The notes under the pieces are model-generated. The model saw only the letters and a list, made by a program, of their open reading frames with translations, had not been told where the DNA came from and searched no databases. DNA of 64,000 bases. Source: Bacillus sp. PK3_68. Lineage in GTDB: Bacteria > Bacillota > Bacilli > Bacillales > Domibacillaceae. Position numbers and translations under genes: made by a program. Location: positions 1 to 64,000 of the forward strand of contig NZ_NQYC01000001.1 in the NCBI RefSeq assembly GCF_003600835.1, read 5' to 3'. Below are positions 17,656-64,000 of this stretch, in pieces. Every line of letters starts with the position of its first letter. The stretch's first letter is position 1.

Positions 17656-17666
17656 ATAGAAAATTT

Positions 17667-17748
17667 AGCTAGGGGTGCCTTTAAGGCTGAGAGGATGCAT
17701 GCATCTAACCCTTGAACCTGATTTGGTTAGTACCAACGGAGGGAAGCT
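17667..17748 (+). ncRNA. TPP (thi-box) riboswitch
   Basis: The conserved thiamine pyrophosphate aptamer core is present: GGGGTGCC (17672-17679), GGCTGAGAGG (17685-17694), CCCTTGAACCTGAT (17709-17722), then GGTTAGTACC and GGAGGGAAGCT. AGCT ends (17667-17670 and 17745-17748) close the P1 helix. It lies before thiG and directly upstream of an intrinsic terminator, so thiamine pyrophosphate binding is expected to stop transcription of the thiazole operon. Confidence 0.95.
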
Positions 17749-17785
17749 GTCTCTATTTATGTATGTTTATTTGGTGTACATAAAG

Positions 17786-42601: not shown

Positions 42602-43193
42602 TCCTTAAATAATAAGTTATTCGTTGAATGGATGGGGGAAATTGGATGAAAACGTAACAAATGAACAGTATTACATTGATATTCTTTTTATTATAGTATT
42701 AACACCCATAATGTACAAATAATGGGACGTTTTGCTAGGATGCACACGAACAGCAAATTCACTCACTGGATTTTAGATTAGTCTAATCGCCAAAAAGGTG
42801 TGTTTTATGTAATCACTCTTTTTTTGGTTGTCTCCCTTTATTAGATAGAGCCTTCTTTTTCTTCTATTTATAAGAATTTTATGTTAAACGGCACCTGCTG
42901 TGTTGGTGTTACTTAGTAAAAAATAGGTATATGGTCAGAAGAATTTAAGGAAGTTATAAGAAGGAAAGTGTATTCTTGCTTTACATATAAGACTTATAGA
43001 GAAATGATAAGGAAAAAAGTCACGTTAAACAAAAAAGCTTTTGAAGATAAGAAGCTTAATTAATAACTGACATCATATTAAACTGCGTAAATGTAAAGCA
43101 GGCAAGCAAGTATAAAAATATAGAAGCAAAAAGCCGAATGTTTAAAGATTGTTCATGATAGCGGCTGTGTTCTCTATAGTAGGGGGGAAAGAA
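42602..43193. other. AT-rich intergenic region upstream of sinI
   Basis: A stretch of about 590 bp without coding signals. Near the right end a TATAGT (43175-43180), 14 bp before the sinI start, overlaps a single GTTCTCT heptamer (43169-43175). This could be a promoter with a SinR half site, but isolated heptamers are expected by chance. I see nothing else. Confidence 0.45.
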
Positions 43194-43346
43194 ATGCAGG
43201 GGAAAGAGTATGTTGATCAAGAATGGTTAGCGCTGATGATCGAGGCCAAGAAAGCAGGTATTTCAATTGAAGAAGTGAAGAAGTTTCTTAAAAGTAAGGA
43301 GACATCTAGTGAATTTCTTAGTTTTATAAAGAAAGATAGAATATAG
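43194..43346 (+). CDS. sinI: SinI-type anti-repressor (orphan)
   Basis: A 50-residue SinI-domain protein. The core DQEWLALMIEAKKAGISIEEVKKFL (split here as DQEWLALM, EAKKAGIS and EEVKKFL) closely follows B. subtilis SinI (DQEWVELM, EAKEANIS, EEIRKYL), the helix pair that binds and inactivates SinR at biofilm onset. ATG 43194 follows AGGGGGGAAAG. Unlike the classical sinI-sinR pair there is no sinR beside it, so it resembles the SlrA type. The SinR-like protein encoded at 52160 lacks the matching dimerisation tail, so its natural partner is probably elsewhere in the genome. Confidence 0.85.
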   Translation: MQGKEYVDQEWLALMIEAKKAGISIEEVKKFLKSKETSSEFLSFIKKDRI

Positions 43347-45627: not shown

Positions 45628-48600
45628 ATGAAAAAACGAAATACATGGCTAGCTGTCCTCTGCTTTATCGTCGTTTTGATAGGGCTTCGTTTGTCCTGGC
45701 TTTATATCTATAATGACCCTAGTATGCCAAAGGCAGAAAAAGGAATAATAGATGCGGCAAAAGTAGACCTATCAAAAAAACCTATGCAGTTAAAGGGAGA
45801 GTGGCTTTTTTATCCAGAGCAGTTGCTCGCACCTGATAGTTTGTCAGAGCAAAAGAAAAAAGCTGTACAGGTCCCGATTCCCTCTGATTGGAAAGAATGG
45901 ATTCAGGACAAGCAGAAACATCCATACGGGTATGGCACCTTTCAATTGTCAATTTTAACGGATCAAAATAAGCAGGAAACATACAGAATTCGATTTATGG
46001 GCATCCAATCTGCTGCTCGTATTTTTGTGAACGGTCAGTTAATAAAAGAAATGGGCAATCTCGGTACAAATAGAGTGAGCTCCCATCCAGAAAACAGCTC
46101 TTTTTCTGTGAATGTCAAGCCGAAAAACAGCAAGATTGATCTAGTGGTTCAAGTATCTAATTTTCACTATCTACGGTCAGGCGGCATTTCACGCCCAGTG
46201 TATTTCGGGACAACAGAGGCTGTCAGACATCATGAGCAAATCTCTATGTCTATGCAGCTGATCACTGCAGCTGTTCTTTTTTTTCATGGAATTTACTTAG
46301 TTATTCTATACATGTTCGTTTTTAAGAAGAAAAATTTGCTTTTGCTTGCAACAGCTGTATTTTGCATGTGTTTTTCCATACTAATTGATGATGATCAACT
46401 GCTCCGATTTGCTATTCCAATGGATATTGCTTTTGAAGCAAGATTAAAACTTGCGTATCTATTGTATTTTGGCGCGGTCGTTTGCAGTTTTAGTTTCTTG
46501 AAAACACTGGTACCGGATCAGTTCAATAGAACCTTCCGTTTGTTTCAGTTATTTACAGCTATTTATCTTATTGCTTTGATTATTTTTCCCTATCAGGAGT
46601 TTTATTATTTCAGATCGGTTATTTATAGTTTTATTACTCTTGGACTCGCGTTTCTTGTTCCAGTTCTTTTCTATAAAGTAGCTTCTCGCAAGGAACCGTA
46701 CACGATTTATCTTGTTTTTACCGTGGTGGCTGTTTCGTCCAGTGCATTAGGGGGAGCGGTAAAACAATTTTTTAAGGGGATCGCTGTACCATTCTATCCG
46801 TTTGATTTACTAATTGGCACTGTTTGTTTTGCTCTCTTTTGGTTTAAGAGATTTTATTATACAGCTGAAGAAAAAACACAATTGAATGCAAAATTGCAAC
46901 GTGCAGATAAAATGAAAGATGATTTTCTGGCGAATACTTCTCATGAGCTGCGCAACCCGCTTCATGCGATGATCAATATTGCTCAGTCACTATTAAGTGA
47001 CCCGCTGTCTGAGGAAACGAAAAGGCAGGTGCAGATGATAGAGTCAGTTGCCCGAAAAATGTCCTATACGTTACAGGACTTAACAGATATCTCAGCGCTG
47101 AAAGAAGGCCATGTTCCTTTATCCAAGCAGCCAGTCGATCTTTACAGTATTGTTGAGTATGTGTTTGACCTGTTGGCATTTTCAAAAGAGGGGAAGCATG
47201 TGGTATTTACCAACGATGTGCCAAAGGCTTTTCCATTGGTGGTTGCAGATGAGAATAGAATGGCACAAGTTATGTTCAACCTTATTCAAAATGCGTTGAA
47301 ATTTACTGAAGAAGGGATGATTTCTGTCTCTGCATTGGAGAAGGAGGGACAGGCAGTGATCTCTGTTCAAGATACTGGAATAGGGATGGACGAAGAAACA
47401 CAAAAACGGATTTTCCAGCCATATGAACAGGCTGATTCGAGCATGACTGCTGCAGGAGGCGGCATGGGGCTGGGCTTAAGTATTTGTGCGCAGCTAGTTG
47501 AGCTGCACGGAGGAACACTGTTTGTGATCTCTTCTCCAGGAGAAGGGTCCACTTTTACCTTTTCTCTTCCGATTAGCAGGAAAAAAAGAGAGCGGATCGA
47601 GGAACCATTAAAGCAAGACAAACTGCCTGATTTGGTGGCGGCATCATTTGCTCGAGAAGAAACTGAGTCGATTCTGGTGATTGATGATGACCCAATTAAC
47701 CTCTCTGTATTAAAGAGAATATTGGCACAAGCCGGCTATGTGGTGACAACTTGCTTAAATGGAGAAGAGGCGCTCTCACACCTGCATGATCAAAGATGGA
47801 GTTTAATCATCTCGGATGTCATGATGCCTCGAATGTCAGGCTATGAATTAACCTCTCAAGTAAGGAAAAAGTTCTCGATGTCAGAGCTTCCGATTCTACT
47901 ATTGACAGCACGGGGGAAAACGGAAGATATCGAAGCCGGCTTTCAGGCAGGAGCAAATGATTATATTTTAAAACCGGTGGAGAAGGCGGAGCTCATGGCA
48001 AGGGTTTCAGCGCTTCTTCAGTTAAAGCAATCAATGCACAAGCAGGCTCGTACAGAGGCAGCTTTGCTTCAAGCACAGATGCAGCCTCATTTTTTATACA
48101 ACACTCTTAACACAATCGTGGCGCTGAGTGAAATTGATCATGATGAAATGGCCAAGTTATTGCATGAATTCGGGAACTATTTACAGAAGAGCTTTGACCG
48201 GGGCAACATGCAGGAAACGGTGACGATGGAATCAGAGCTGAACCTTGTCCAATCTTATCTATATATTGAGCGTCAGCGCTTCGGTGAACGTCTGTCCATT
48301 TGCTGGGAAGTAGAGGACGACAGCTTGCAGGCACTTGTTCCTCCGCTGTCCATCCAAACACTAGTGGAGAATGCGGTGAGACATGGAAGGTCTGAGCAGA
48401 CTAACCCGTTGGTTGTTTCTTTAATTGTGAAAAGAGTAGAAGATCATATACAAGTGGTCATTAAGGATAACGGTTGTGGGATGAAGAGCGAGAAAATAAA
48501 ATTGATATTAGAAGATCCTGAACAAGGAGGCATCGGTCTCTATAATACGAATAAGCGTCTTATTCAGCTGTACGGGCAAGGACTAACTATTCAAAGCGCT

Positions 48601-48672
48601 ATAGGAAAAGGAACAAAAGTGGCTTTTTCTCTTCCTATCCCATCAAGTGGAAACCACGATGCCCATCTATAA
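45628..48672 (+). CDS. hybrid sensor histidine kinase with 7TMR-DISM input and two kinase cores
   Basis: Protein of 1014 residues. Order of domains: signal or anchor helix (about 8-28), extracellular 7TMR-DISM-type sensing domain (about 45-195), seven membrane helices (about 205-415), HisKA with NTSHELRNPLHAM (His about 440), HATPase with NLIQNALKF and GMGLGLSI, receiver with DDDPIN and SDVMMPRMSG (Asp about 730), then a LytS-like kinase core QMQPHFLYNTLN (His about 820), with a second ATPase (TLVENAVRHG, GGIGLYNTNKRL). Two phosphorylatable kinase modules and a receiver in one chain are unusual. Start is ATG 45628, although no strong ribosome site precedes it; a better one is at 45564 in another frame. 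Signals to the divergent response regulator. Confidence 0.88.
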   Translation: MKKRNTWLAVLCFIVVLIGLRLSWLYIYNDPSMPKAEKGIIDAAKVDLSKKPMQLKGEWLFYPEQLLAPDSLSEQKKKAVQVPIPSDWKEWIQDKQKHPYGYGTFQLSILTDQNKQETYRIRFMGIQSAARIFVNGQLIKEMGNLGTNRVSSHPENSSFSVNVKPKNSKIDLVVQVSNFHYLRSGGISRPVYFGTTEAVRHHEQISMSMQLITAAVLFFHGIYLVILYMFVFKKKNLLLLATAVFCMCFSILIDDDQLLRFAIPMDIAFEARLKLAYLLYFGAVVCSFSFLKTLVPDQFNRTFRLFQLFTAIYLIALIIFPYQEFYYFRSVIYSFITLGLAFLVPVLFYKVASRKEPYTIYLVFTVVAVSSSALGGAVKQFFKGIAVPFYPFDLLIGTVCFALFWFKRFYYTAEEKTQLNAKLQRADKMKDDFLANTSHELRNPLHAMINIAQSLLSDPLSEETKRQVQMIESVARKMSYTLQDLTDISALKEGHVPLSKQPVDLYSIVEYVFDLLAFSKEGKHVVFTNDVPKAFPLVVADENRMAQVMFNLIQNALKFTEEGMISVSALEKEGQAVISVQDTGIGMDEETQKRIFQPYEQADSSMTAAGGGMGLGLSICAQLVELHGGTLFVISSPGEGSTFTFSLPISRKKRERIEEPLKQDKLPDLVAASFAREETESILVIDDDPINLSVLKRILAQAGYVVTTCLNGEEALSHLHDQRWSLIISDVMMPRMSGYELTSQVRKKFSMSELPILLLTARGKTEDIEAGFQAGANDYILKPVEKAELMARVSALLQLKQSMHKQARTEAALLQAQMQPHFLYNTLNTIVALSEIDHDEMAKLLHEFGNYLQKSFDRGNMQETVTMESELNLVQSYLYIERQRFGERLSICWEVEDDSLQALVPPLSIQTLVENAVRHGRSEQTNPLVVSLIVKRVEDHIQVVIKDNGCGMKSEKIKLILEDPEQGGIGLYNTNKRLIQLYGQGLTIQSAIGKGTKVAFSLPIPSSGNHDAHL

Positions 48673-51168: not shown

Positions 51169-52017
51169 TTGGTGCAAATAGAGAAAATATATTCGGAAGA
51201 TTTTAAAGGAGCTAACCACTCCTTGCAAATACAAAATGCGATTGAATTTGCCAGGCAAAACAATACAAAAACTGTCCTGCTTGCAGATAAGTCTTACAAC
51301 ATCACTGCTCCTATAATCGTTAGAGAAGGAGTAAGACTGGAATTTGGGCATGGAACAACCTTCGTCGTTTATGGAAACTTTCCAGTAATAGAGTTGGAGA
51401 GAAACGCCGTGCTTACAGGAGCATACATTGCTATTGACGATGCAGCTTTTAATTCGGACGTGATTCGTTTAGATGGTAAACACAAATATTATAATGTCTG
51501 GAATCGGACTAAAATTGAAGAATTAAATGTAATTAACTGGTCGGGTAGCCATAAAGGAACAGGAATATCCTTATTTTCAGGCGGCAGTGGACATGAAATT
51601 TCTTATGTTAATTTTGAAAATGTGAAAATAGCGGGCATGGCTACTGGTATGAAATTGAAAGCGCAAAAGCCGGCAACGGGCATGGCCTGGGTAAATGCTA
51701 ACCGGTTTACCAATGCCTCATTGGATGATTGTGTGACCATGATCCACATGGAGAGCGGATTAACCGTCCCTAATGAGTGCAGTGGCAACCAATGGACAAA
51801 TTTGCAAATACAGCCTTCAACAGCTACCCAAAAGATTGCAAGAATTACTGGACAGTATAATAGACTTGAAGGAATGGTGTGGGATTTAGCCTCTATTCCC
51901 CATAAAAATCCGATTATAGACTTGACTGCCGCATCAGACGCAACGGATATTCTTATCCCGTCGATCCCGCTAAACCGGATTAGCGATAATGGCACAAATA
52001 ATAAAATTGGCAGATAA
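51169..52017 (+). CDS. beta-helix (pectate-lyase-fold) protein, copy 1
   Basis: Protein of 282 residues that looks like a right-handed parallel beta-helix of the pectate lyase superfamily. The start resembles an Asp/Asn-rich N-terminal cap (NAIEFARQNNTKTVLLADKSYNI), followed by short-strand repeats and VNANRFTNASLDDCVTMI and PNECSGNQWTNLQI blocks. It has no signal peptide or anchor, in contrast to the paralogue at 62777, which starts with a membrane helix. Start is TTG 51169 after GGAGG. Probably modifies or binds the EPS, or is a trimmed duplicate; enzymatic residues cannot be assigned. Confidence 0.75.
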   Translation: MVQIEKIYSEDFKGANHSLQIQNAIEFARQNNTKTVLLADKSYNITAPIIVREGVRLEFGHGTTFVVYGNFPVIELERNAVLTGAYIAIDDAAFNSDVIRLDGKHKYYNVWNRTKIEELNVINWSGSHKGTGISLFSGGSGHEISYVNFENVKIAGMATGMKLKAQKPATGMAWVNANRFTNASLDDCVTMIHMESGLTVPNECSGNQWTNLQIQPSTATQKIARITGQYNRLEGMVWDLASIPHKNPIIDLTAASDATDILIPSIPLNRISDNGTNNKIGR

Positions 52018-52159: not shown

Positions 52160-52402
52160 TTAACAGCCTTTTCTACTGAGGGCTGGTTGCTTTTTTCTCC
52201 GAAGCGGTTCAGATGCAATTAAATCATCTAGAGTGGTTTCAAGAGCCAAGGCAATTTGGGAAAGAATGCGCAGGGACGGATTGGTCATGGCTTTACTCTC
52301 CAACGTTGATAAATAGGATTTTGAAATATGAGCTTCATTAGCAAGTTTTGTCAGTGAATATCCTTTTTCCTCACGCAATTGTTTAATACGCCTACCTATC
52401 AT
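52160..52402 (-). CDS. SinR-like HTH repressor without SinI-binding tail
   Basis: XRE-family helix-turn-helix protein of 80 residues. The N-terminal domain is very close to B. subtilis SinR (MIGRRIKQLREEKGYSLTKLA, ISKSYLSTLES, TNPSLRIL). After the DNA-binding domain it ends in a short basic tail (PLRRKKQPALSRKGC) and lacks the C-terminal helical hook through which SinR binds SinI. ATG 52402 follows AAGGAG; the longer frame to 52444 starts inside the promoter. It is divergent from the EPS operon whose promoter carries SinR-type palindromes, so it probably represses that operon and perhaps itself, independently of SinI. Confidence 0.85.
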   Translation of the reverse strand: MIGRRIKQLREEKGYSLTKLANEAHISKSYLSTLESKAMTNPSLRILSQIALALETTLDDLIASEPLRRKKQPALSRKGC

Positions 52403-52489
52403 GTTAGAATTCTCCTTTTTTGGTTTTTGTTCATTATAACGCATAATTGAATATTTTTAGGTTATTTTTTCGCCTAAAATTAAAAAAAT

Positions 52490-52505
52490 GTTCTTTATAA
52501 AGAAT
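52490..52505. promoter_or_regulatory. SinR-type palindrome 1, between the SinR-like gene and the EPS operon
   Basis: GTTCTTT-AT-AAAGAAT is a 7-2-7 inverted repeat of the SinR heptamer GTTCTYT with one mismatch in the outermost base. It lies upstream of the predicted operon promoter and 88 bp from the SinR-like start codon. Confidence 0.7.
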
Positions 52506-52524
52506 AAACAGGTCTAATTACCTA

Positions 52525-52553
52525 TTATTTATTGCGGAGGCACATGGTATACT
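52525..52553 (+). promoter_or_regulatory. predicted EPS operon promoter
   Basis: An extended -10, TGGTATACT (52545-52553), is 17 bp from a weak TTATTT -35 (52525-52530). SinR-type palindromes flank it at 52490 and 52567, the second one covering the likely start site region. Confidence 0.5.
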
Positions 52554-52566
52554 CACATCAAGGTTG

Positions 52567-52582
52567 TTCTCTAAAAAGAACA
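52567..52582. promoter_or_regulatory. SinR-type palindrome 2, downstream of the EPS promoter
   Basis: GTTCTCT-AA-AAAGAAC is a 7-2-7 inverted repeat of the SinR heptamer GTTCTYT, with both half sites matching. Starts 14 bp after the -10 element, well placed to block transcription. Confidence 0.75.
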
Positions 52583-52652
52583 AACGGGTGAAAAGATAGT
52601 CAGATATCCCAATTAAAGGTTTATTATCTATCGATGGGAGAGGAAGAAGAGA

Positions 52653-53582
52653 ATGAGAGTGTTAGTTACAGGCGGAGCTGGATTTATTGGTTCACATATT
52701 ACAGAGGAATTACTGGCGCAAGATCACCAAGTAGCAGTGGTTGACAATCTTTCCTCTGGGAAGAGAGAGCAAGTCCCTGCAGCAGCTGTATTTTATGAAG
52801 GAGACGTTAGAAAAAAAGAATTAGAGGAATTTTACTCGGATTTTCAGCCAGACTGTGTCATTCATTTAGCTGCACAGGTCTCAGTTGCTAAGTCTTTTCT
52901 AGAGCCGCTCAACGATATTGAAGAAAATATTGTTGGTACTGTGAATATGCTTGAAACGTGCGTAAAGTATGGCGTAAAAAAAGTGATTTTTTCTTCCACT
53001 GCTGCTTTATACGGCAATCCTGATTACTTGCCGGTTGATGAACGCCATCAGGTGAATCCCCTCTCTTTTTATGGATTATCAAAAAAGCATGCGGAGGCCT
53101 ACATAAGGTTGTTTTCAGAGCTGCATGGATTAACGTATACGATTTTGCGTTATGCCAATGTATATGGCATGAGACAGAGTGCCAATGGAGAGGCAGGAGT
53201 GATCTCTATTTTTATTGAAAAACTTTTAAACAGCCAGCCGCTGACTGTGCTCGGAGACGGAAACCAGACGAGAGATTTTATTTTTGTTAAAGACGTGGCC
53301 AAAGCCAATGTCGCTGCGCTCACTCATGGTGAAAATGAGATTATCAACATCAGCACAGGAAAGCAAACATCAGTATTAGATATGGTAAAAGAAATGAATG
53401 AAATCGCTGGGAATGTTTCTTCTCTTATTTTTAGTGAAGAACGGACAGGAGATATTAAGGCGAGTTGTTTAACAAATAAAAAAGCAGAAACTGTGCTTGG
53501 GTGGAAGCCGGCTTATTCATTGGCAGAAGGGTTAAAAGAAACGATTTATTATTACCAGAAAGAGATGGTCATACAGAGCTGA
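52653..53582 (+). CDS. NAD-dependent sugar epimerase (GalE-like)
   Basis: Extended short-chain dehydrogenase/reductase of 309 residues, first gene of the EPS operon. It has the NAD-binding glycine motif GGAGFIGSHI (about 7-16), HLAAQ (about 71) and the catalytic YxxxK in YGLSKKHA (about 139-146), preceded by SSTAALYG with the catalytic Ser/Thr. Most likely a UDP-glucose 4-epimerase producing UDP-galactose (or the N-acetyl forms). ATG 52653 follows GGAGAGGAAG. The C-terminal part continues to about 305 as usual. Confidence 0.88.
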   Translation: MRVLVTGGAGFIGSHITEELLAQDHQVAVVDNLSSGKREQVPAAAVFYEGDVRKKELEEFYSDFQPDCVIHLAAQVSVAKSFLEPLNDIEENIVGTVNMLETCVKYGVKKVIFSSTAALYGNPDYLPVDERHQVNPLSFYGLSKKHAEAYIRLFSELHGLTYTILRYANVYGMRQSANGEAGVISIFIEKLLNSQPLTVLGDGNQTRDFIFVKDVAKANVAALTHGENEIINISTGKQTSVLDMVKEMNEIAGNVSSLIFSEERTGDIKASCLTNKKAETVLGWKPAYSLAEGLKETIYYYQKEMVIQS

Positions 53583-53603
53583 CGGAAGGAAGGAGAAGCT
53601 GTT

Positions 53604-54374
53604 ATGCAGGAGGATATGACTATAAAGGGGTTTTTAAATTTAATCAAGAAAAGAATGATTTTGATCAGTGTAACTGCAGTGATCGTAGTAGTAGTCACTG
53701 GTTGGGCTGTCTTTTATATTTTTGAACCGACGTATGAAGCAAGTGAATATATTTTGATTGGTAATCTGCAAAATACAAATACAGAAAATTCTTATGAGGA
53801 AACACAAAAAATTCCACAAATGCTAGCGTCCTCTGTGGACTTTATAAAAAGTCCGATTGTTTTAAGCGCAGTAAAAGAAGAGCTTGATTTGAGAGGAACC
53901 TCATTAGAGGAAAAGCTGTTTATTGAAAACAATAAAGATTCTCAAATCGTTACTATAACGGTAAAAGACCGGGATGAAAAACTGGCACGAAATATTGCCA
54001 AAACTACAGCAGTCATATCACTTGAGAAAATGAACACGCTTCTCAAGTTCAACCAAGTGAAAATTTTGGAAAAAAACGATGGGATTATCAAGAAAAATAA
54101 TGAAGTAGCAGCCCTGGCGATTGCCCTTATAACTGGACTATTATCGGGGATTGGTCTAGCTGTTATTCGTGAGCAATTGGATGACTCAGTGAAAAAAGAA
54201 GACGACGTGGAGAATTTACTTGGCATGCCGCTGTTAGGGAAGTTTGATAGCAAGATAGAATTCCGGAAAAGCAGCAAAGAAAAACGCCCTTACGAAGAAT
54301 ATGATCCAGAGAGGAGGCAATTGGTTGCTAAAGAGAAGGAAAAACAGGTGGATCAGGCGACTTCCATCTCCTGA
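53604..54374 (+). CDS. Wzz/CapA-type chain-length regulator (YveK/EpsA-like)
   Basis: Polysaccharide co-polymerase of 256 residues that controls EPS chain length and recruits its kinase partner. Two membrane helices (about 19-40 VTAVIVVVVTGWAVFYIF and about 170-190 VAALAIALITGLLSGIGLAVI) flank an extracellular domain; the short cytoplasmic tail has REQLDDSVKKEDDVENLLGMPLLG, the typical post-helix sequence. ATG 53604 follows AAGGAG. Its end overlaps the start of the kinase-like gene by 50 bp, indicating coupling. Confidence 0.85.
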   Translation: MQEDMTIKGFLNLIKKRMILISVTAVIVVVVTGWAVFYIFEPTYEASEYILIGNLQNTNTENSYEETQKIPQMLASSVDFIKSPIVLSAVKEELDLRGTSLEEKLFIENNKDSQIVTITVKDRDEKLARNIAKTTAVISLEKMNTLLKFNQVKILEKNDGIIKKNNEVAALAIALITGLLSGIGLAVIREQLDDSVKKEDDVENLLGMPLLGKFDSKIEFRKSSKEKRPYEEYDPERRQLVAKEKEKQVDQATSIS

Positions 54375-54945
54375 CAAGTGGTTGAGTACAGAGCAGATCC
54401 GAATGATGAAAATGAATATTCAACATGCGGTTAAACATGAAAATCTAGTTTTAATGGTGACCTCTCCAGAAGAAAATAGAAGGCAGCCGTTTATTTCTTC
54501 AAAGCTGGCCAGTTCGTTTGCAGAAGCAGGGAAAAAAGTGCTGCTGGTTGACGTGAATTTCAGAAAGCCAGTGATTCACCAGTTGTTTGGTTTCCGAAAT
54601 GCTTCGGGTTTGAGCAATTTATTAAGGGGAGAAAAAGGAAAGGTCATGGAAGGAATTGTTCAAAATCTAGATATACTTTCTGCTGGATCTTTCTCCATCC
54701 ATCTTGAAAGCTTAGAGAGAATAGAGCAGTTAATAACTGTTTGGCAGCGCTGCTACGACGTCATTGTCCTAGATACACCGGCGTTTTTGGATGCAGCTGA
54801 CTCTCAAATCCTTTCATCTGCCTGCGATGGTGTGCTTCTTGTCATTCAAGAAAATCGAACAAAAGAAGCCAATGCTTTGCAAGTGAAAAAGATACTGGAA
54901 AGAACAAACAATAACCTTTTAGGGGCAATTTATCAAACAAGTTGA
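54325..54945 (+). CDS. BY-kinase-like ATPase with degenerate Walker A
   Basis: CpsD/CapB/EpsB-type bacterial tyrosine kinase homologue of about 206 residues. Walker A' (KVLLVDVNFRKPVIH) and Walker B (VIVLDTPAFLDAADS) are recognisable, but where the family has GEGKST this protein reads PEENRRQPF, so the P-loop Lys and Ser/Thr are gone. The C-terminus (GAIYQTS) lacks the usual tyrosine cluster. It may therefore act only as a scaffold for the Wzz protein. Start chosen as TTG 54325, 6 nt after AGAGGAGG; ATG 54301 has no ribosome site. Confidence 0.8.
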   Translation: MLKRRKNRWIRRLPSPDKWLSTEQIRMMKMNIQHAVKHENLVLMVTSPEENRRQPFISSKLASSFAEAGKKVLLVDVNFRKPVIHQLFGFRNASGLSNLLRGEKGKVMEGIVQNLDILSAGSFSIHLESLERIEQLITVWQRCYDVIVLDTPAFLDAADSQILSSACDGVLLVIQENRTKEANALQVKKILERTNNNLLGAIYQTS

Positions 54946-54965
54946 AGTTATGCAGGTGATGATGA

Positions 54966-56426
54966 ATGGATAGCAGAAAAAAAAACTCCATTGGTAAAAA
55001 TGTATTTCACTTATTTTATAGTACCGCTTTTTCGAGTGGGTTGAACGCTGTTACACTTGTCATTTTAGCAAACTATTTGAATTCTCACAGTTATGGAATG
55101 TTCAGCATCGCCTTAGCATACTCACTAATTATGGGTTACTGTACAGATGCTGGGATCAGCGTAGCAGTGCTTCGCGAAGGGGCAAAGAAAGGGATTAGCC
55201 TCCCAGCTGTTCTTTCTTCCTTTATCAAAATCAGAGCTGTGTTATTGGGAATTACATTTGCGGGCGGCTTCGGTCTGATTCAACTGTTGTATCAAGGGCA
55301 GCCAGAGTTAATGAAAACGATGTATTTCTTGATCGTGCCCATGGTGATAGGTTTAGCTTTACAGAGCATTAGCATCACCTATTTTCAACTTACGGAAGAG
55401 ATGCAATATTTAGGAGTAATCCGTATTTGTTCAGCCGTGCTGCTCGTCACTTCTATTTTGGCAGGCATAACCTTGTCGTTGCACCCATACGCCATTTGTT
55501 TTTTGTATGGTTTATCTTATTTATTAGCAGGAGTGATAGGAATTTACCTGATCGGAAAGCGGACGGCGATCCGGTTTCACTATGCTTTTCATAAAGGGAT
55601 GTTGAAGAATGTGCTGTCCTTCATGATAAGTGGTTTATTAATTGTCCTCCTTCCACAGCTAGGGCCAGTTGTGCTGGAGAAAACATTAACGCTCAAGCAG
55701 GTGGGATTTTTTGCTGTTGCTTACCGGATTCCTTCGGCTTTATATCAAATTCCAGGGGTATTGGCGGGCGCATTTTATCCGGCGTTATTTAAAAGCTATA
55801 ACAGCAAAGGAAAGATCGAGCATTTGCAGTTAAATATGTTGCAGCTAAAAATGATGGCACTGCTAGGTATGGCGATGACGATTTCTTTATTTTACATACC
55901 GGAAATCATCATTGGCACATTGTTTGGGGAAGAGTGGTTATTCGCTGCGAAAGCTTTGCAAATATTGTCTTTTCTGCTTGTCTTGCAAAGCGTCAATATA
56001 GCGTTGGCTGATGGATTAACGACGAAAGCTTTGCAGTCTCGGCGAACAACTGTCCAGGCGCTGTCTCTTGTCGGAGGGATTTATTTTTATATGGCTTTTA
56101 GCCATCAATATGGAGTGGAAGGCGCTGCTTTTGCAGGGGTCGCTGTCGAGCTGCTGTCTTTAGCAGGCTATTGGCTCTTGAATCCGGACAGAAAAGCTTT
56201 AGCGGTTAAAGTATTGCTTCCTTATTTATTGTTCTTTCTTGCTTTTTTTGCAGTTACGAGTTCTTTCTTTTCGGCTTCTCCTATGCTTGCTGCTGTTCTT
56301 CACTTGTTATCCCTTCTAGTGATCATAGCAGTTGATCGGGGCTTAATGCGCAAATTAATGAAGATTATTCGTAAAGACCAGAGCGAAGAGGCGGTAAAGC
56401 GAGGGATAAAAGATGGGATTTCTTAA
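54966..56426 (+). CDS. Wzx-type polysaccharide flippase
   Basis: Oligosaccharide repeat-unit flippase of 486 residues with about 14 membrane helices (MOP/MATE fold). Conserved start SIGKNVFHLFYSTAFSSGLNAVTLVILANYLNSHSYGMFSIALA and later VGFFAVAYRIPSALYQIP are typical Wzx. It moves the undecaprenyl-linked repeat to the outside of the membrane. ATG 54966 follows AGGTGATG. Its end overlaps the polymerase gene by 14 bp. Confidence 0.9.
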   Translation: MDSRKKNSIGKNVFHLFYSTAFSSGLNAVTLVILANYLNSHSYGMFSIALAYSLIMGYCTDAGISVAVLREGAKKGISLPAVLSSFIKIRAVLLGITFAGGFGLIQLLYQGQPELMKTMYFLIVPMVIGLALQSISITYFQLTEEMQYLGVIRICSAVLLVTSILAGITLSLHPYAICFLYGLSYLLAGVIGIYLIGKRTAIRFHYAFHKGMLKNVLSFMISGLLIVLLPQLGPVVLEKTLTLKQVGFFAVAYRIPSALYQIPGVLAGAFYPALFKSYNSKGKIEHLQLNMLQLKMMALLGMAMTISLFYIPEIIIGTLFGEEWLFAAKALQILSFLLVLQSVNIALADGLTTKALQSRRTTVQALSLVGGIYFYMAFSHQYGVEGAAFAGVAVELLSLAGYWLLNPDRKALAVKVLLPYLLFFLAFFAVTSSFFSASPMLAAVLHLLSLLVIIAVDRGLMRKLMKIIRKDQSEEAVKRGIKDGIS

Positions 56427-57690
56427 GTCTACTAATCAAAAGCAGCGTCACGCCAGTCTGTTTTTACTGCTTTTTTTCTTTATGTTAAGTAAATATAACC
56501 TATATATTGGCTTTGCTTTAAAGCCTTACATGGTCTTTTTATGTGTATATTTACTTTTTCATTTTTCTGTTTTCTCTTTTCAGAAAATGCATGCTTTCGA
56601 AATCATGCTGTTATTATTCTATTTATTCTACAGTTTTACCGGCATTTTTTCCGCTTATCCTTTTGCCAGTATTCGTATTATGGCAGGAATTTTCTTACTG
56701 ATCAGCTGTTATTTCATTTTAAGGTTCGTTTTAGAGAAATATTCAATTAATGCAATACAAGAGGCCATTGCCAAGTCAGGTTTATTGTTTAATATGGTAA
56801 GTCTTCTGTTATATGCCATAGGATTAAAAAAAGTGGGATTCCAAGTATCGGAAGAGATGATTTCCAGTTACGGGCTCCTTATGGACAGAAGCTATCCGCG
56901 ACTGATCGGCTTGCTAGAAGATCCGAATCTGTATGTTTTTTATAATATGATTTTCTTTACATACTTTCTGAGCAATATGACTAGCTGGAGAAATAAAGCG
57001 GGGTTTGCTCTCTGCATGCTCACGACGGTCTTAACCTTTTCAAGAGGCGGCATATTATCTATGCTCCTGATTATTTTGCTTTACACAGCAATCAGCCATT
57101 CTGCTGCAAGATGGCGGACACTCGGTACATTGGGCATCATTTCTATCGCGGCAGGTTACATAGCCGTAGTTGTCATGAAGATTAATATTGTGGGGCTGAT
57201 CGGAAAAAGAATAGAAGACTTTTCAAGTGATGGGGGAAGCGGGCGCTTTGAATTGTGGAGTCGGGCGTGGAACTACTTTCTTGAACATCCTGTTGTTGGA
57301 ATAGGGGCCGATAATTTTATTGAATATAACAAAGCGCATTATGGAGAGAGTTTATACACGCACAATACCTTTTTGCAAATATTATCGGAATCGGGTCTAA
57401 TAGGGTTTTCTTTATACTTTCTATTTCTTCTTTTGGTGTTCATTCAACTCATGAATCGCCATTTAAGGAGAGAGCATTTATATTTGCTTTTATGTTTTGT
57501 AGCATTTTTACTGCAGATCATGTCTCTTTCTTTGATTATTAATGAAGTATTTCTTCTATATCTTGCTGTTCTTTCAACCGTTTTGCGAAAGGAAGAAAGG
57601 GTGCGGCTTACAAAGCAGCAGAAAGTGAAGGATCGTCAACTCACTGCCAAGGAGGTCTATGGAAATGAATGTGCTGTTAATGACAGATAA
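56413..57690 (+). CDS. Wzy-type polysaccharide polymerase (O-antigen ligase superfamily)
   Basis: Membrane polymerase of 425 residues with about 11 helices. The large extracellular loop carries GGSGRFELWSRAWNYFLEHPVVGIGADNF (split: GSGRFELW, EHPVVGIGADNF) and the YTHNTFLQILSESGLIGF signature of the O-antigen ligase/Wzy superfamily. It joins repeat units at the outer face of the membrane. Start overlaps wzx (ATG 56413), with AAAGCGAGGG upstream; the end overlaps the next glycosyltransferase gene. Activity inferred from position and the HNTFLQ block. Confidence 0.87.
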   Translation: MGFLKSTNQKQRHASLFLLLFFFMLSKYNLYIGFALKPYMVFLCVYLLFHFSVFSFQKMHAFEIMLLLFYLFYSFTGIFSAYPFASIRIMAGIFLLISCYFILRFVLEKYSINAIQEAIAKSGLLFNMVSLLLYAIGLKKVGFQVSEEMISSYGLLMDRSYPRLIGLLEDPNLYVFYNMIFFTYFLSNMTSWRNKAGFALCMLTTVLTFSRGGILSMLLIILLYTAISHSAARWRTLGTLGIISIAAGYIAVVVMKINIVGLIGKRIEDFSSDGGSGRFELWSRAWNYFLEHPVVGIGADNFIEYNKAHYGESLYTHNTFLQILSESGLIGFSLYFLFLLLVFIQLMNRHLRREHLYLLLCFVAFLLQIMSLSLIINEVFLLYLAVLSTVLRKEERVRLTKQQKVKDRQLTAKEVYGNECAVNDR

Positions 57691-58717
57691 GCTAATAACA
57701 GGCGGAGCCGAACATTACTTTTGTAAATTGGAGAACCAATTGAACCATCCAAAACTGGTCTTTTATACAGCGGCAGGCAAGGGGGAACTATTCGGGAAAA
57801 TCAGTAATAAAGAGCATTTTACGCCTCTGTCTCGCAGCAATCATCTTCTTAATCTGTTGACCATTAAAAGAAAAGTGCTGGAACATGATATTGACATTAT
57901 TCATGCAAATAGTTTAAGAATGGCCCTTTATGCTATAGCAATGAAGAGGTTAATTAAAAAGGGAATAAAGATCGTTTATACCAAGCATAACGTGACAATG
58001 ATGGAAAAAAATCTTCGTCCGCTCTTTGCTCAGCTGTTAAACAGGCATATAACAAAAATTATTACAGTGAGCGGCTATGAGCAGGAGAATCTTTTGCAGC
58101 TTGGTATCCAGCCAAGCAAGATAACAACGATCTACAATGGAGTAGATTTAAGCCAATTCACGTATCATCAAAAAGAAAGAAAGAACGGATTTAAAGTTGG
58201 GATTTTGGCAAGGCTGTCTCCGGAGAAAAACCATACATTATTTCTGGAAATTGCGAGAAAGTTGAAAAATGATCCGGATATACAATTTTATATAGGTGGA
58301 GAGGGGCCGGAATATGTAAGAATCAGCCAAATGATTGAAGAGTGGGGCCTTACTCGCCATGTGCATATGAGGGGGGAAGTGAAAGATCCGGAGAATTTTA
58401 TTAAAGAGATGGATGTACTCGTTTTAACCTCTCATCGTGAAGTGTTTCCATTGGTTGTTCTCGAAGGAATGGCTGTCGGAACACCGATAGTTTCAGTGAA
58501 CACAGGCGGAATTAAAGAAGCTATTATCAGCTCTGAGCTTGGTTATCTTGTACCGGACTATTCAGCAGAAAGTTTTTGTGAACATATCGTGTCACTCAAA
58601 GAAAATCAGCAGTTAAGAGTAGGAATAGCTAGGCGTGCTCGTGAATGGGTACAGAAGAATTTTTCTTTAGAAAAAATGGTCAGCTCTACCATGAAAGAGT
58701 ATTTAAATGAAAAATAA
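57665..58717 (+). CDS. GT4-family glycosyltransferase
   Basis: Glycosyltransferase with a GT-B fold, about 350 residues. The GT4 (glycosyl transferases group 1) domain shows VGILARLSPEKNHTLFLEIA (about 178), GEGPE (about 217) and the nucleotide-sugar-binding EGMAVGTPIVSVNTGGIKE (about 270-290). N-terminal part has the typical MTDKLITGGAEHYF start. I prefer ATG 57665, 9 nt after AAGGAGG; ATG 57659 is only 3 nt away from it. Donor and acceptor sugars not predictable. Confidence 0.87.
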   Translation: MNVLLMTDKLITGGAEHYFCKLENQLNHPKLVFYTAAGKGELFGKISNKEHFTPLSRSNHLLNLLTIKRKVLEHDIDIIHANSLRMALYAIAMKRLIKKGIKIVYTKHNVTMMEKNLRPLFAQLLNRHITKIITVSGYEQENLLQLGIQPSKITTIYNGVDLSQFTYHQKERKNGFKVGILARLSPEKNHTLFLEIARKLKNDPDIQFYIGGEGPEYVRISQMIEEWGLTRHVHMRGEVKDPENFIKEMDVLVLTSHREVFPLVVLEGMAVGTPIVSVNTGGIKEAIISSELGYLVPDYSAESFCEHIVSLKENQQLRVGIARRAREWVQKNFSLEKMVSSTMKEYLNEK

Positions 58718-58738
58718 AAGGAGTTTTATTGTTTGGAT

Positions 58739-58754
58739 GTTCTTTATAAAGAAC
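58739..58754. promoter_or_regulatory. SinR-type palindrome 3, within the EPS operon
   Basis: GTTCTTT-AT-AAAGAAC is a perfect 16-bp palindrome in the 65-bp gap between two EPS genes, with the same 7-2-7 layout as the operon-promoter sites. It may control an internal promoter for the priming transferase or act as a roadblock. Confidence 0.7.
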
Positions 58755-58782
58755 AAAATTACAGATAGAAAGAGGGGTTGGA

Positions 58783-60171
58783 ATGAGCAGGGGGAGTGAA
58801 GGGCGGATTGGCAAAATGTCTCTTGCTGTATTGGATATTTCATTCATCCATTTAGGTTATCTAACTGTCTACTGGCTGTCGAATGAGTCGGCTGTTCCTT
58901 TTCATTATGTGCAGGCAGCTCCTTGGGTTTCAGCCATAGCCTTTATTATTTTTTATTTATTTGGTTTTTATATGGATTGGCAAAGAAAAAGCTTTCAGCA
59001 GATGGCTTGCACGATTTTATTATCACTCGGAATAGTAGCGGTCTTAATAACCATCGCTAATATTGTTTATCCGATGGCAACGTTTTCCACACAATTGATT
59101 TTAACTGCTTCGTTGATACACGCTGTTTCAATTCTATTGAGCCGTCTTATTATTTGGCAGGTAATAAGAATGGTTCACGGAAGAAAACGGTTGTTAATCA
59201 TCGCAGAAGATGAAAAAAACGGCTTATCTTTAGCTGATAAACTACTTTCCCATCACAAAGGATGGTTTATTGTCAGTAAACTTGTCACCTTAAAAGAAAA
59301 AGACAAATTAACAGATTGTTTGAAAGAGATCGACGTCGTATTAATCAGTGATTCCATCAATGGAAAGCAAAGAAGTGAGCTGATTAATCTCTGCGCCAAG
59401 CAAGAGAAAGAAGTGTTGGTTGTACCCCAGCTCTTTGAAATATTTATTCACGGGTCAGTTCATCAGCAAGTGGATGATATGTTAGTCCTGTCTATTCCTC
59501 CTACAAAGCTTAGTGGAGCGAGACGTGCAGTGAAACGGACTTTCGATTTTGTGGTAGCAGCTATCCTTCTTGTAGCTGTTAGTCCGGTGACTATTTGTTT
59601 GTGGGTGCTTATCCCGCTTACATCAAAAGGACCTGCTTTGTTTAAGCAGGAACGGCTTGGAAGGAATGGAAAGCCCTATCAAATTTATAAGTTTAGGAGC
59701 ATGGTCCAAAATGCAGAAAAAGATACCGGTCCCGTATTGGCAACAGAACGTGATCCCCGAATCACAGCGATTGGCAGATTGATTCGGGCTACACGGCTCG
59801 ATGAATTGCCTCAATTATACAACGTGCTTAAAGGGGAAATGAGCCTGGTGGGGCCGCGTCCGGAAAGAAAGTTTTTTTACGATCAATTCCAGCAATATTT
59901 GCCTGAATATTCAAATAGAATGACTGTGAAGCCTGGATTGACCGGGCTGGCACAAGTCATGGCCAATTATACGACTGCTCCTGAAGATAAGCTACGGTTT
60001 GATTTAATGTATATTCGCCATTATTCCTTTGGAAATGACATCAAAATTTTATTCCAAACCATCTGGGTTATCTTCCAGAAAAACAAAGCTGAAGGAGTAG
60101 TAGAAACAAACTCTCAGAAGAAAAAGAGATTATTGCAGCTGCTCAGTCAAAATCAGGCTGCCGGCCAGTAA
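58783..60171 (+). CDS. polyprenyl-phosphate glycosyl-1-phosphate transferase (EPS priming enzyme)
   Basis: Initiates EPS synthesis by moving a sugar-1-phosphate onto undecaprenyl phosphate. It has 462 residues: five N-terminal membrane helices (about 15-125), a soluble CoA-binding-like segment (about 130-235), another helix (about 252-272) and the bacterial sugar transferase domain. The last shows KRTFDFVVAA, QERLGRNGKPYQIYKFRSM, ATRLDELPQLYNVLKGEMSLVGPRPE (split: DELPQLYNVLKGEMSLVGPRPE) and VKPGLTGLAQV. ATG 58783 follows AGAGGGGTTGG. A SinR-type palindrome lies 29 bp before the start. Sugar (probably Glc or Gal) not determinable. Confidence 0.92.
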   Translation: MSRGSEGRIGKMSLAVLDISFIHLGYLTVYWLSNESAVPFHYVQAAPWVSAIAFIIFYLFGFYMDWQRKSFQQMACTILLSLGIVAVLITIANIVYPMATFSTQLILTASLIHAVSILLSRLIIWQVIRMVHGRKRLLIIAEDEKNGLSLADKLLSHHKGWFIVSKLVTLKEKDKLTDCLKEIDVVLISDSINGKQRSELINLCAKQEKEVLVVPQLFEIFIHGSVHQQVDDMLVLSIPPTKLSGARRAVKRTFDFVVAAILLVAVSPVTICLWVLIPLTSKGPALFKQERLGRNGKPYQIYKFRSMVQNAEKDTGPVLATERDPRITAIGRLIRATRLDELPQLYNVLKGEMSLVGPRPERKFFYDQFQQYLPEYSNRMTVKPGLTGLAQVMANYTTAPEDKLRFDLMYIRHYSFGNDIKILFQTIWVIFQKNKAEGVVETNSQKKKRLLQLLSQNQAAGQ

Positions 60172-60186
60172 AGGAGAATATATAGC

Positions 60187-61380
60187 ATGAAGATCTTATT
60201 CATTACCCATCGAATGCCAAAGGTTCCGGGAAAAGGAGATCAGGTTAGAGCTTTTCAACAAATGAAAAGCCTGGTGAAGAAAGGCCATACAGTTCACTTT
60301 TTATTCCAGGAGAAAGACGAGGCACATTGGTGCTGTGCTTCTTCTTTGATAGAAGGAAGCGGCAAAGAGAAACAGAAAATGAAAGTGAAAAATAAGACTC
60401 TTTCAATCATTAGAAGCTTTCTTCTGAAAGGCTATCCCTTAAGTGTGTCGCTCCATTCTTTTCCGGTATTGAAAGCTTTCCTTACAAGCATTACAAGCCA
60501 GGTTCACTATGACGTCATCCATATTCAATCGAAAGTTCTCCATAATTTTTCTTCATTGAATATTCCCAATTCAACAATGGTAGTGGATTACATAGATGCC
60601 ATCAGTCTTAATCTAGAAAGGCGATACCATTGGGCGAAGAACCCGCTTGAGAAATTAGCGGTTAAAGGGGAGTTGGGCCGGATGAAAAAATATGAAAGCT
60701 TTATAAGAGATCAAGGTGTAAAAACCATTATTACTTCCCCGGCTGACAAAGAATTTCTTCATTCAAGGCGGGCCAAACAAGTGAACGTGGTGCCTAATTA
60801 TATTGATTTATCCTACTTCCACTTGAACCATTCAATTGAGGATAAAAAGAAAGCCTTGGTATTCACAGGGACAATGAATTATGCCCCAAATGTCGATGCA
60901 GCCATGAGGCTTGTGAAGGATATTTACCTTCCTTTAAGAGAAAAATTTTCTGATTTGGAATGCTGGCTTGTTGGAGCCTATCCTTCAGCAGATGTACAGA
61001 AACTGAGCAAAATCAGCGGTGTAATGGTTACTGGATTTGTAGAGGATATTAGACCGTGGCAATGGAAAGCGGCAGTATACGTTTGTCCTCTTCGCTTTGG
61101 AGCGGGGCAGCAAAATAAGATATTGGAGGCAGCTGCTTTAGGGTGTTCCATCGTGATGAGCAACATTACAAATTCCGGCATTGGCTTCACACACAATGAA
61201 GAAGCACTGATCTGTGAACAGAATAAAGAATTTGTAGAGCATACTGAACAGTTGCTGATTAATAGAGAGCTGGCAGCCAAATTAGCCGGGCGGGCTAGAG
61301 AATTTGTAGCCCACCGTTTTTCAGAGGAGGTTGTGACGGACCGATTGATTTCCACTTATACAAAAGCAGATAACTATTAA
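60187..61380 (+). CDS. GT4-family glycosyltransferase (EpsH1/PEP-CTERM-associated type)
   Basis: Second GT-B glycosyltransferase, 397 residues. The start FITHRMPKVPGKGDQVRAFQQMKSL fits the sugar transferases of the TIGR03087 type; the C-terminal GT4 domain has FTGTMNYAPNVDAAMRLVKDI (about 222-242), WLVGAYP (about 260) and VYVCPLRFGAGQQNKILEAAALG (about 298-320). ATG 60187 follows AAAGGAG. Adds a sugar to the growing repeat unit; specificity unknown. Confidence 0.85.
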   Translation: MKILFITHRMPKVPGKGDQVRAFQQMKSLVKKGHTVHFLFQEKDEAHWCCASSLIEGSGKEKQKMKVKNKTLSIIRSFLLKGYPLSVSLHSFPVLKAFLTSITSQVHYDVIHIQSKVLHNFSSLNIPNSTMVVDYIDAISLNLERRYHWAKNPLEKLAVKGELGRMKKYESFIRDQGVKTIITSPADKEFLHSRRAKQVNVVPNYIDLSYFHLNHSIEDKKKALVFTGTMNYAPNVDAAMRLVKDIYLPLREKFSDLECWLVGAYPSADVQKLSKISGVMVTGFVEDIRPWQWKAAVYVCPLRFGAGQQNKILEAAALGCSIVMSNITNSGIGFTHNEEALICEQNKEFVEHTEQLLINRELAAKLAGRAREFVAHRFSEEVVTDRLISTYTKADNY

Positions 61381-61403: not shown

Positions 61404-62780
61404 ATGCAGCTAATCTTATTATCCGGTGGGTCGGGAAAACGCTTATGGCCCTTATCAAACGATTCGAGATCAAAACAATTTTTACAGGTGCTTGCTAATG
61501 AAGACGGCCATATGGAGTCGATGGTGCAAAGAGTATGGCGGCAGCTTGGCCACTTGGGTTTACAGCAATCAACCATGATTGCTACAAGCAAATCTCAAGT
61601 AGATATGATACAAAGTCAATTAGGTTCGCATGTGCCGCTTATTACTGAACCGGAGAGAAGAGACACATTTTCCGCTATTGCTTTAGCAGCTGTATATTTG
61701 TATTGCATAAAGGGGGTTAGCTTACAAGAAGTAATTGGTGTACTTCCCGTTGATCCATTTGTTGAGGACCGTTTTTTCCATGAAGTGGAACGGCTGGAAG
61801 AAACATTGATAACTTCTGAGGCAGACCTTGCTTTAATAGGTGTAAAGCCGACATTCCCTTCAGAAAAGTATGGTTACATTTTACCTAAAATTGAGGACAA
61901 TCAACGGGCTTATATGGAAGTAAGCCATTTTAAAGAAAAGCCGTCTGCATTACAAGCAGCTGGCTTAATAGAACAGCACGCTTTATGGAACGCAGGAGTT
62001 TTTGCATTTAAGCTTGAATACATTTTATCTATCCTTGAAGAAAAGGGCTTGCCTATCCATTACGAGGAGTTATACAAACAGTATTCGCTTCTGCCAAAAA
62101 AGTCATTTGATTATGAAGTCGTTGAAAAAACAAAAAAAATAGTAACGGTTCCTTATAACGGTTATTGGAAAGATCTTGGAACGTGGAATACACTAACAGA
62201 AGAAATGTGCACAAATCAAATGGGCGATGGAGTAATTAGTCAAGATTGCACAAATACTCATATGATTAATGAGCTGGGAATACCAGTTACTGTAGTCGGT
62301 GTGACGGATCTTATCATTGCAGCGAGTCCCGACGGTATTCTCGTATCGGATAAAAATAAAAGCCCGAGGGTTAAGACATTGCTTGATGGAATTCAGAAGC
62401 GGCCAATGTATGAGGAGAGACGCTGGGGTTGGTATCGCGTGCTCGATTATACGAAAGTGGAGGACGAAGCGGAGGTATTAACCAAGCGGGTTTGCATAAA
62501 AGCTACCAAGAATTTAAGTTATCAAAAGCATCGTTTTCGCAGTGAAGTCTGGACAATTATTAAAGGAAAAGGAGAATTTGCTTTAAATGGCTTAATTTAT
62601 TCTGTGAAAGCGGGAGATGTGCTTCATATTCCAGTTGGAGCAGAACATGGGTTGAAGGCAATCACAGATTTGGAATTTATCGAAGTGCAATCAGGTTCTA
62701 ATTTAGTAGAAGAGGACATATGCCGCATTTACATGGACTGGTATGAAGTCGTGCAGCATTGCAATAAAGTAGTAAGTTGA
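61404..62780 (+). CDS. manC: mannose-1-phosphate guanylyltransferase / mannose-6-phosphate isomerase
   Basis: Type II bifunctional enzyme producing GDP-mannose, 458 residues. The nucleotidyltransferase part has LLSGGSGKRLWPLSNDSRSKQF (split: LSGGSGKRLWPLS, SRSKQF), LPVDPFVED, EKPSALQA and WNAGVFAFK. The C-terminal cupin (isomerase) has HRFRSEVWTIIKGKG and a metal-ligand Glu/His pattern (IPVGAEHGLKA). ATG 61404 follows GGGGG. Indicates mannose or a GDP-mannose-derived sugar in the EPS. Its stop overlaps the next ORF by 4 bp (TTGA/ATAA type junction, next start TTG 62777). Confidence 0.92.
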   Translation: MQLILLSGGSGKRLWPLSNDSRSKQFLQVLANEDGHMESMVQRVWRQLGHLGLQQSTMIATSKSQVDMIQSQLGSHVPLITEPERRDTFSAIALAAVYLYCIKGVSLQEVIGVLPVDPFVEDRFFHEVERLEETLITSEADLALIGVKPTFPSEKYGYILPKIEDNQRAYMEVSHFKEKPSALQAAGLIEQHALWNAGVFAFKLEYILSILEEKGLPIHYEELYKQYSLLPKKSFDYEVVEKTKKIVTVPYNGYWKDLGTWNTLTEEMCTNQMGDGVISQDCTNTHMINELGIPVTVVGVTDLIIAASPDGILVSDKNKSPRVKTLLDGIQKRPMYEERRWGWYRVLDYTKVEDEAEVLTKRVCIKATKNLSYQKHRFRSEVWTIIKGKGEFALNGLIYSVKAGDVLHIPVGAEHGLKAITDLEFIEVQSGSNLVEEDICRIYMDWYEVVQHCNKVVS

Positions 62781-63780
62781 ATAAGAAGGCAAAATTGATG
62801 CTAAAGAAGAATATGCACATTAGATGGCTGCCTATTATTTTTCTATTTGGAGCAGTGAGTTCCTATTTGCTGATAGGTTTGCGGGGGTGGGGAGAGCCCG
62901 ACCTTGAACAGACGAATCGTGCATCCCGGGAACAAGTTGTAGAAGTAGAAGATTTTACAACAGATGAAAGAGGAACAGCAGACGATTATTCAAAGGCGAT
63001 TCAACAGGCCATTGATTTTTGTGTTACATACAAAAAGAAAAAGTAATGTTTAGAGCAAACAAAAAGTATGTCGTCCAGTCAGGCTTTACTGTCAAAGAAG
63101 GCGTGAAACTGGAGTTTGGCCAAAATTCTATATTGGTGGTTAAGGGAAATGAGCGTGTGATAACCGTTGAGAAGGATGCCGTCATTATAAATGGAACCGT
63201 GCAAATCGTAGATCCTGATTTTCAGTCGGAAGTTATTTTTTTAAAAGGCACGGACCGCTTCGATGCCACAAATAGGACCCGTATTGAAAACATGGCGATT
63301 ATCAACAAAAGTGAAAGTTACAAAGGAACGGGTCTTTCTCTTTATGCTAAGGGTCCGTGGCACAACATTAGCTTTGTTCATTTTGAAAATATTTCTATAG
63401 TGGGCTTCCAAACAGGCATTCAACTAAAAGCCGAAAATCCTAAAGATGAGACTTACAGTTGGATTAATGCCAATCGTTTTGAAAATGTGTCATTGGATGA
63501 TTGTGTTTTTGGCATCCGGTTAGTAGGTTCAATCAGCATTCCAAATGAGTGCTCAGGCAATTATTTTACAGGGCTGCAAGTACAACTGACCGAACATACA
63601 GAGCAATTCATAAAGGCGGATGGTTCATATAATAAATTTGAGGGCATGGTTTGGGATGTGCAGCGTATCAGGCATTCTGCGCCGCTCGTAGTGCTTACAG
63701 CTGAAACAGAAAATAATCAATTAGATCTAAATATAGCAGATGAATGGATCAACGATCGTGGTCAGAAAAATAGTTACTGA
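62777..63780 (+). pseudogene. membrane-anchored beta-helix protein, copy 2, frameshifted
   Basis: Paralogue of the protein encoded at 51169, but with a membrane helix at the N-terminus (IRWLPIIFLFGAVSSYLLIGL, about 15-35). The first frame (TTG 62777, ending at 63046) runs to QQAIDFCVTYKKKK, then shifts at an A-rich run (63033-63043). One extra A joins it to the second frame (VMFRANKKYVV onward), which carries the same beta-helix blocks as copy 1 (ANRFENVSLDDCVFGI, IPNECSGNYFTGLQV). Reconstructed protein is about 333 residues. Either a sequencing error or an inactivated anchor copy. Last gene of the EPS operon. Confidence 0.8.
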
Positions 63781-63920
63781 GAAAAAAAGTGTCTGTTTAT
63801 TCCGTCGAAAGAAGTGATAAAATGTTTTACTAAAACTAATGCAAACAACTCAATCCAGGTGCTAAAATTTAAGTAGAATAAAACTTTTCTTTTTCTTGCA
63901 AAGGCGAATATCAAATCATA

Positions 63921-64000
63921 GAAAAAGGCAAACTTATTGAAAAATAAGGACGCAAAGCTTCAGGTCTAAGGGGAAATAAGCTATGACGGCTGGGCTGCCG
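63921..64000 (+). ncRNA. c-di-GMP-I (GEMM) riboswitch, truncated by the window end
   Basis: The conserved GEMM core is visible: AAAAAGGCAAAC (63923-63934), a short hairpin, GGACGCAAAGC (63948-63958), GGTCTAAGGGGAAA and GACGGCTGGGCTGCC up to the window end. Nearly the complete aptamer is present; the expression platform and target gene lie beyond 64000. It senses cyclic di-GMP. Confidence 0.88.

Follow-up and report, generated by a model that had tools for sequence, protein, structure and literature searches.

The window analysed here, a 64-kb stretch of the Bacillus sp. PK3_68 genome (positions 1 to 64,000 of contig NZ_NQYC01000001.1), carries an exopolysaccharide (EPS) operon on its forward strand. 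The operon begins with an NAD-dependent epimerase/dehydratase (52653..53582) and continues with a Wzz-type chain length protein (53604..54374), an AAA_31 ATPase that we take to be Wze/BY-kinase-like (54301..54945), a multi-helix protein labelled by eye as a Wzx-like flippase (54966..56426), a member of the Wzy_C polymerase/ligase family (56413..57690), a group 1 glycosyltransferase (GT1; 57659..58717), a priming sugar transferase (Bac_transf; 58783..60171), a second group 1 glycosyltransferase (GT2; 60187..61380) and a ManC-type nucleotidyltransferase with a mannose-6-phosphate isomerase C-terminus (61404..62780). Apart from the flippase and Wze/BY-kinase-like labels, these assignments rest on family matches. 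The last open frame of the operon (PL2; 63019..63780) resembles by eye the protein encoded at 51169-52017, and PL2 counterparts are present in four related loci (L117, L118, L121 and L158).

Genes of the SinR/SinI type lie on both sides of this operon. Upstream, on the reverse strand, is an 80-aa protein that we call mini-SinR (52160..52402; the ATG at 52402 was picked by eye for its Shine-Dalgarno sequence), whose best PDB matches are SinR chains. It comprises a SinR-type DNA-binding domain only: a domain search found no SinI-type tail, either here or in the homologue from Pseudobacillus badius. The sequence-only reading had proposed the SinR-like protein of the window as the binder to test, but a complete SinR, with a DNA-binding domain and a SinI-type oligomerisation tail (E 1.3e-13), is encoded just beyond the window, at contig 64702-64358 on the reverse strand. 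It faces sinI (contig 64022-64162, forward strand), which also begins just past the window end and stands directly behind a c-di-GMP-I riboswitch aptamer (63917..64000 in the window, running to 64002). A second SinI-type gene lies at 43194..43346 on the forward strand and carries no riboswitch at gathering score; the two short SinI-domain proteins score 43.8 and 45.2 bits, above the cut-off. Around the second gene we also observed a GTTCTCT half-site at 43169, just ahead of it, and a large hybrid histidine kinase (45628-48672) with a divergent response regulator (44063-45184). Relatives of this kinase and regulator occur near SinR genes in four loci of another genus, g3 (L151, L153, L155 and L156).

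Three palindromes accompany the EPS operon on the forward strand: O2 (52490..52505; GTTCTTTATAAAGAAT), O1 (52566..52581; GTTCTCTAAAAAGAAC), which lies 76 bp from O2 and shortly after the inferred start site, and O4 (58739..58754; GTTCTTTATAAAGAAC), which is internal to the operon, between GT1 and the priming transferase. All three had been picked out by the sequence-only reading and all are present as GTTCTYT inverted repeats with 7-2-7 spacing. Two of its coordinates, 52490 and 58739, are correct, but the second site starts at 52566, not 52567; O1 and O4 match the consensus exactly, and O2 is one mismatch off, ending in GAAT.

We searched for further sites with the consensus GTTCTYTNNARAGAAC, using the same pattern reversed as a control. 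No additional site with at most one mismatch was found in the window, which holds 26 matches with at most three mismatches (mean of 15.9 and largest value of 25 in 100 shuffles). Single GTTCTYT heptamers showed only a mild excess (39, vs. a mean of 24.7 and a largest value of 39 in shuffles). Extended to the complete genome (4.83 Mb on two contigs), the search yielded 14 sites at this tolerance, two of them exact and 12 one mismatch away. Both exact sites fall in the EPS region and O2 is one of the 12; the other 11 (eight within open frames of 80 aa or longer, three not) equal the count obtained with the reversed pattern (11). The genome-wide search that the sequence-only reading had proposed thus places exact sites in the EPS region only, but finds one-mismatch sites elsewhere at the control rate. 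Enrichment at matrix genes generally, which that reading had named as support, cannot be claimed from these results: the EPS region is the sole place with exact sites, and the TasA family (PF12389), the only matrix protein family looked for, gave zero matches.

The control-rate background is what would be expected if the three palindromes were chance AT-rich repeats. Yet at the off-EPS rate, the Poisson probability of at least three sites in 6265 bp, an interval chosen post hoc, is 4.8e-7, and the promoter-flanking pair recurs in all five genomic regions that were aligned. On clustering and conservation together we reject a chance repeat, to which we assign next to no probability, and they uphold the original claim that the cluster is not expected by chance.

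The five aligned regions are the window, P. badius (L121), genome G010 (L196/L158) and two Sporosarcina loci (L117 and L118). They share the same EPS operon and, ahead of it, the same order of blocks: a possible third operator (O3), O2, a CCTATTATT box, an extended −10 element and O1. In the window the extended −10 (TGGTATACT; 52545..52553, forward strand) lies between O2 and O1, as the sequence-only reading had it, and the pattern TGNTATA[AC]T is found in all five regions, although a generic sigma-70 scan did not call the element at 52545. O1 and O2 therefore flank a conserved promoter element of an EPS operon. The O2-to-O1 distance hardly varies (76, 76, 77, 75 and 75 bp), while O3 lies 61, 49, 61, 61 and 62 bp from O2. 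In the order window, P. badius, G010, L117 and L118, the mismatches to the consensus number 0, 0, 1, 0 and 0 for O1, 1, 0, 1, 2 and 1 for O2, and 4, 4, 3, 3 and 3 for O3. The O3 of the window (52429..52444, forward strand; GTTCATTATAACGCAT) was assigned its operator role by eye. Its 13-letter core, GTTCATTATAACG, is identical in all five regions and its reverse strand contains TATAAT, by eye a possible −10 for mini-SinR, whose gene runs divergently. Because O3 has three to four mismatches in the aligned regions, its role as an operator is only a suggestion.

The palindromes agree with published SinR sites, in the available parts of the two reports considered, in heptamer, inverted arrangement and 2-bp spacing. 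SinR binds an inverted repeat about 10 times more tightly than tandem or single sites (PMC3163267, as far as its accessible text goes), and the SinR-1 site of kinB, as given in the accessible part of PMC5733473, is an inverted pair at −57/−51 and −48/−42, that is, 7-2-7. Given this match to the published consensus, the adjacent SinR and SinI genes and the recurrence of the pair in four relatives, it is very probable that the palindromes are SinR-family operators, and we predict with high confidence that they serve the EPS promoter. As operators they would be ordinary in kind and are well supported from sequence, and different genera retain their arrangement around the promoter.

Sites of this type are not confined to the aligned regions. 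The 24 genomes of the family contain 28 exact sites, distributed over 15 genomes, vs. 9 for the reversed control; the other nine genomes have no exact site, and genus g3 (G005-G009) shows no excess (two exact sites vs. seven control matches). A set of 43 loci, picked partly for exact sites or SinI/SinR genes, holds 64 sites within one mismatch of the consensus; 58 of these fall outside open frames of 80 aa or longer, at a mean coding fraction of 0.83, and the reversed control gave zero sites in the same loci. One of the six in-frame sites (L121:6387) falls in the 5′ part of an open frame that extends too far upstream. In further genomes of the family, three loci (L125, L131 and L136) have three to four sites arrayed at spacings of 77-89 bp, with a SinR paralogue on one side and, on the other, a polysaccharide operon that differs in gene content from the EPS operon of the window; two of these loci also have a close site pair at 21-22 bp. 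Elsewhere, the 10 site-adjacent proteins that we scanned were a Rok-type regulator (in two genomes), a DUF2334 protein, an acyltransferase, a glycosyltransferase, an asparagine-synthase-like protein, an amidohydrolase, a short-chain dehydrogenase, a DUF1256 protein and an ABC transporter. The ABC transporter gene points toward its two sites, which lie beyond the gene end, and therefore not all sites precede the gene that was scanned.

Which of the two SinR-type proteins would read these operators? Mini-SinR has the appropriate DNA-binding domain, its gene is located at the operators, and O3, judged by eye, overlaps its likely promoter. Were this tail-less paralogue, which SinI could not remove, the main reader, EPS would stand outside SinI control. 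Several observations make this doubtful. Both Sporosarcina loci keep O3, O2 and O1, yet no paralogue was found in the roughly 3.8 kb upstream of the operon, and in both a full SinR follows the operon; moreover, Colledge et al. (PMC3163267), in the available portion, report SinR(1-69) to be monomeric in solution. We therefore prefer full-length SinR (contig 64358-64702) as the protein that would bind O2 upstream and O1 downstream of the extended −10. Homology suggests that SinR assembles as a dimer of dimers, and such a protein would probably bridge the 76 bp between the two sites, holding the promoter in a short loop that represses it. Looping as such we put at about an even chance; the argument is one of geometry, 76 bp being about 7.2 helical turns. 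The mini-SinR gene may come under additional control through O3, and SinI would remove SinR from the operators.

The internal site O4 lies, as the sequence-only reading stated, inside the operon and before the priming transferase, and a counterpart in P. badius (GTTCTTTATTAAGAAC; L121:12591) likewise stands just before the priming transferase. That reading went on to suggest separate control of the priming step, with O4 as the operator of an internal promoter. The intergenic position, the exact match to the consensus and the P. badius site at the same position favour such a role, but three relatives that share the operon (L117, L118 and L158) lack an O4 counterpart at this place, and a sigma-70-type promoter scan of 58500-58900 returned none, which is weak evidence since the conserved extended −10 at 52545 escapes the same scan. 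On balance we regard a separate promoter as rather unlikely. Another possibility is that O4 works at the RNA level, forming a short intercistronic hairpin. The transcript can pair into a 7-bp stem closed by a 4-nt loop, but the fold energy is unexceptional given the composition (z −0.93; equalled or bettered by 31 of 200 shuffles) and the letters of O4 match the DNA operators, so that we consider an RNA role very improbable. A strong hairpin or terminator at O4 was rejected as well, the two terminator-like calls in 58500-58900 both falling at 58872-58892, within the priming transferase gene. Instead of a separate promoter, we tentatively favour, with low confidence, a role in which SinR bound at O4 exerts its effect within the operon, either as a roadblock or as a remote anchor. 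A literature search on SinR operator, exopolysaccharide and roadblock found nothing in the sources within reach, which excluded most subscription papers.

At the other end of the operon, the aptamer ahead of sinI scored 79.4 bits against the c-di-GMP-I family (RF01051; gathering score of 35) and ends 19 nt before sinI, with a Shine-Dalgarno sequence within the gap. At gathering scores, an Rfam scan of the window returned only this element and a TPP riboswitch (17661-17761), and nothing inside the EPS operon. The genome totals are 10 RF01051 matches and 17 GGDEF matches. Across the family, 64 SinI-domain matches divide into 27 of SinR type (long frames) and 37 of sinI type. An aptamer (RF01051 or RF03167 at gathering score, within 150 nt upstream) precedes 22 of the 37 sinI-type genes; 19 family genomes have a gene of this type, and the aptamer occurs in 14 of them. 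The 15 genes without one include the second sinI of the window (L194) and all seven of genus g3. Both Sporosarcina loci have the riboswitch ahead of sinI. In 19 of these 24 leaders, a script placed the start codon some 14-20 nt after the aptamer, and in the other five it was read by eye at a similar distance. At the level of the order, 18 aptamers were found in 16 of 30 loci, which scored best among those from the 183 genomes, out of 249 searched, that gave a match and are not a random sample, and each of the 18 is followed 8-33 nt on by a SinI-like frame. In genome G018 (L140 7782-9000) a riboswitch-sinI-sinR group sits beside short ManC- and PL2-like fragments, which suggests that the EPS operon has been lost there.

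Because sinI stands directly behind a c-di-GMP-I riboswitch and SinI would displace SinR, c-di-GMP probably sets EPS output. In the circuit that we consider likely, c-di-GMP would act on SinI, SinI on SinR and SinR on EPS. For the specific route through SinI translation we see the chances as roughly balanced, with the sign of the riboswitch an assumption of the model; folding of the leader gave no clear change in Shine-Dalgarno access. An activating sign fits array data, in the accessible part of PMC7793685, in which B. thuringiensis sinI is up at high c-di-GMP, a source that, as far as available, names no riboswitch on sinI. Nor is a link between sinI and a riboswitch stated in the accessible parts of that report or of PMC10240345, PMC8876208, PMC7423583, PMC8470499, PMC6143707 and PMC5864091; the sinI of PMC10240345 is, from the same partial text, an unrelated gene with the same name.

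The notable part of the arrangement is the riboswitch on sinI beside the operators. Its presence in 14 of 19 family genomes would tie c-di-GMP directly to the SinR switch, and the result is a compact, testable circuit with mapped operators. We lean, somewhat beyond even, toward a broader reading, in which much of the Bacillales would use a riboswitch, its aptamer ending just before the sinI Shine-Dalgarno sequence, to read out the SinI/SinR biofilm switch from c-di-GMP. The second messenger would then govern how much SinI is translated, how far SinR occupies its looped operators and, through these, EPS, and the Spo0A-driven wiring of B. subtilis would be one variant and not the rule.

The system resembles the control of epsA-O in B. 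subtilis in its GTTCTYT heptamers, their inverted repeat, an EPS operon as the target and the pairing of SinR with a SinI antagonist. A SinR-like paralogue gene beside the EPS operon is also common to both, the B. subtilis one being slrR. Unlike in B. subtilis, two palindromes here, separated by 75-77 bp, bracket an extended −10, there is no match to the TasA family, an extra site lies inside the operon, and the paralogue has no SinI-type tail. The difference extends to the input: in B. subtilis, the textbook case, Spo0A drives sinI (PMC3163267 and PMC5733473, in their available parts), whereas here sinI is behind a c-di-GMP riboswitch. In this respect the locus is like that of B. methanolicus MGA3, for which the accessible text of PMC4342826 lists a putative (c-di-GMP)-sinI leader in one line of its Table 4 and one sentence. 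In contrast to that report, as far as its available text goes, the riboswitch and sinI are here tied to SinR operators and an EPS operon, and many genomes have the riboswitch ahead of sinI.
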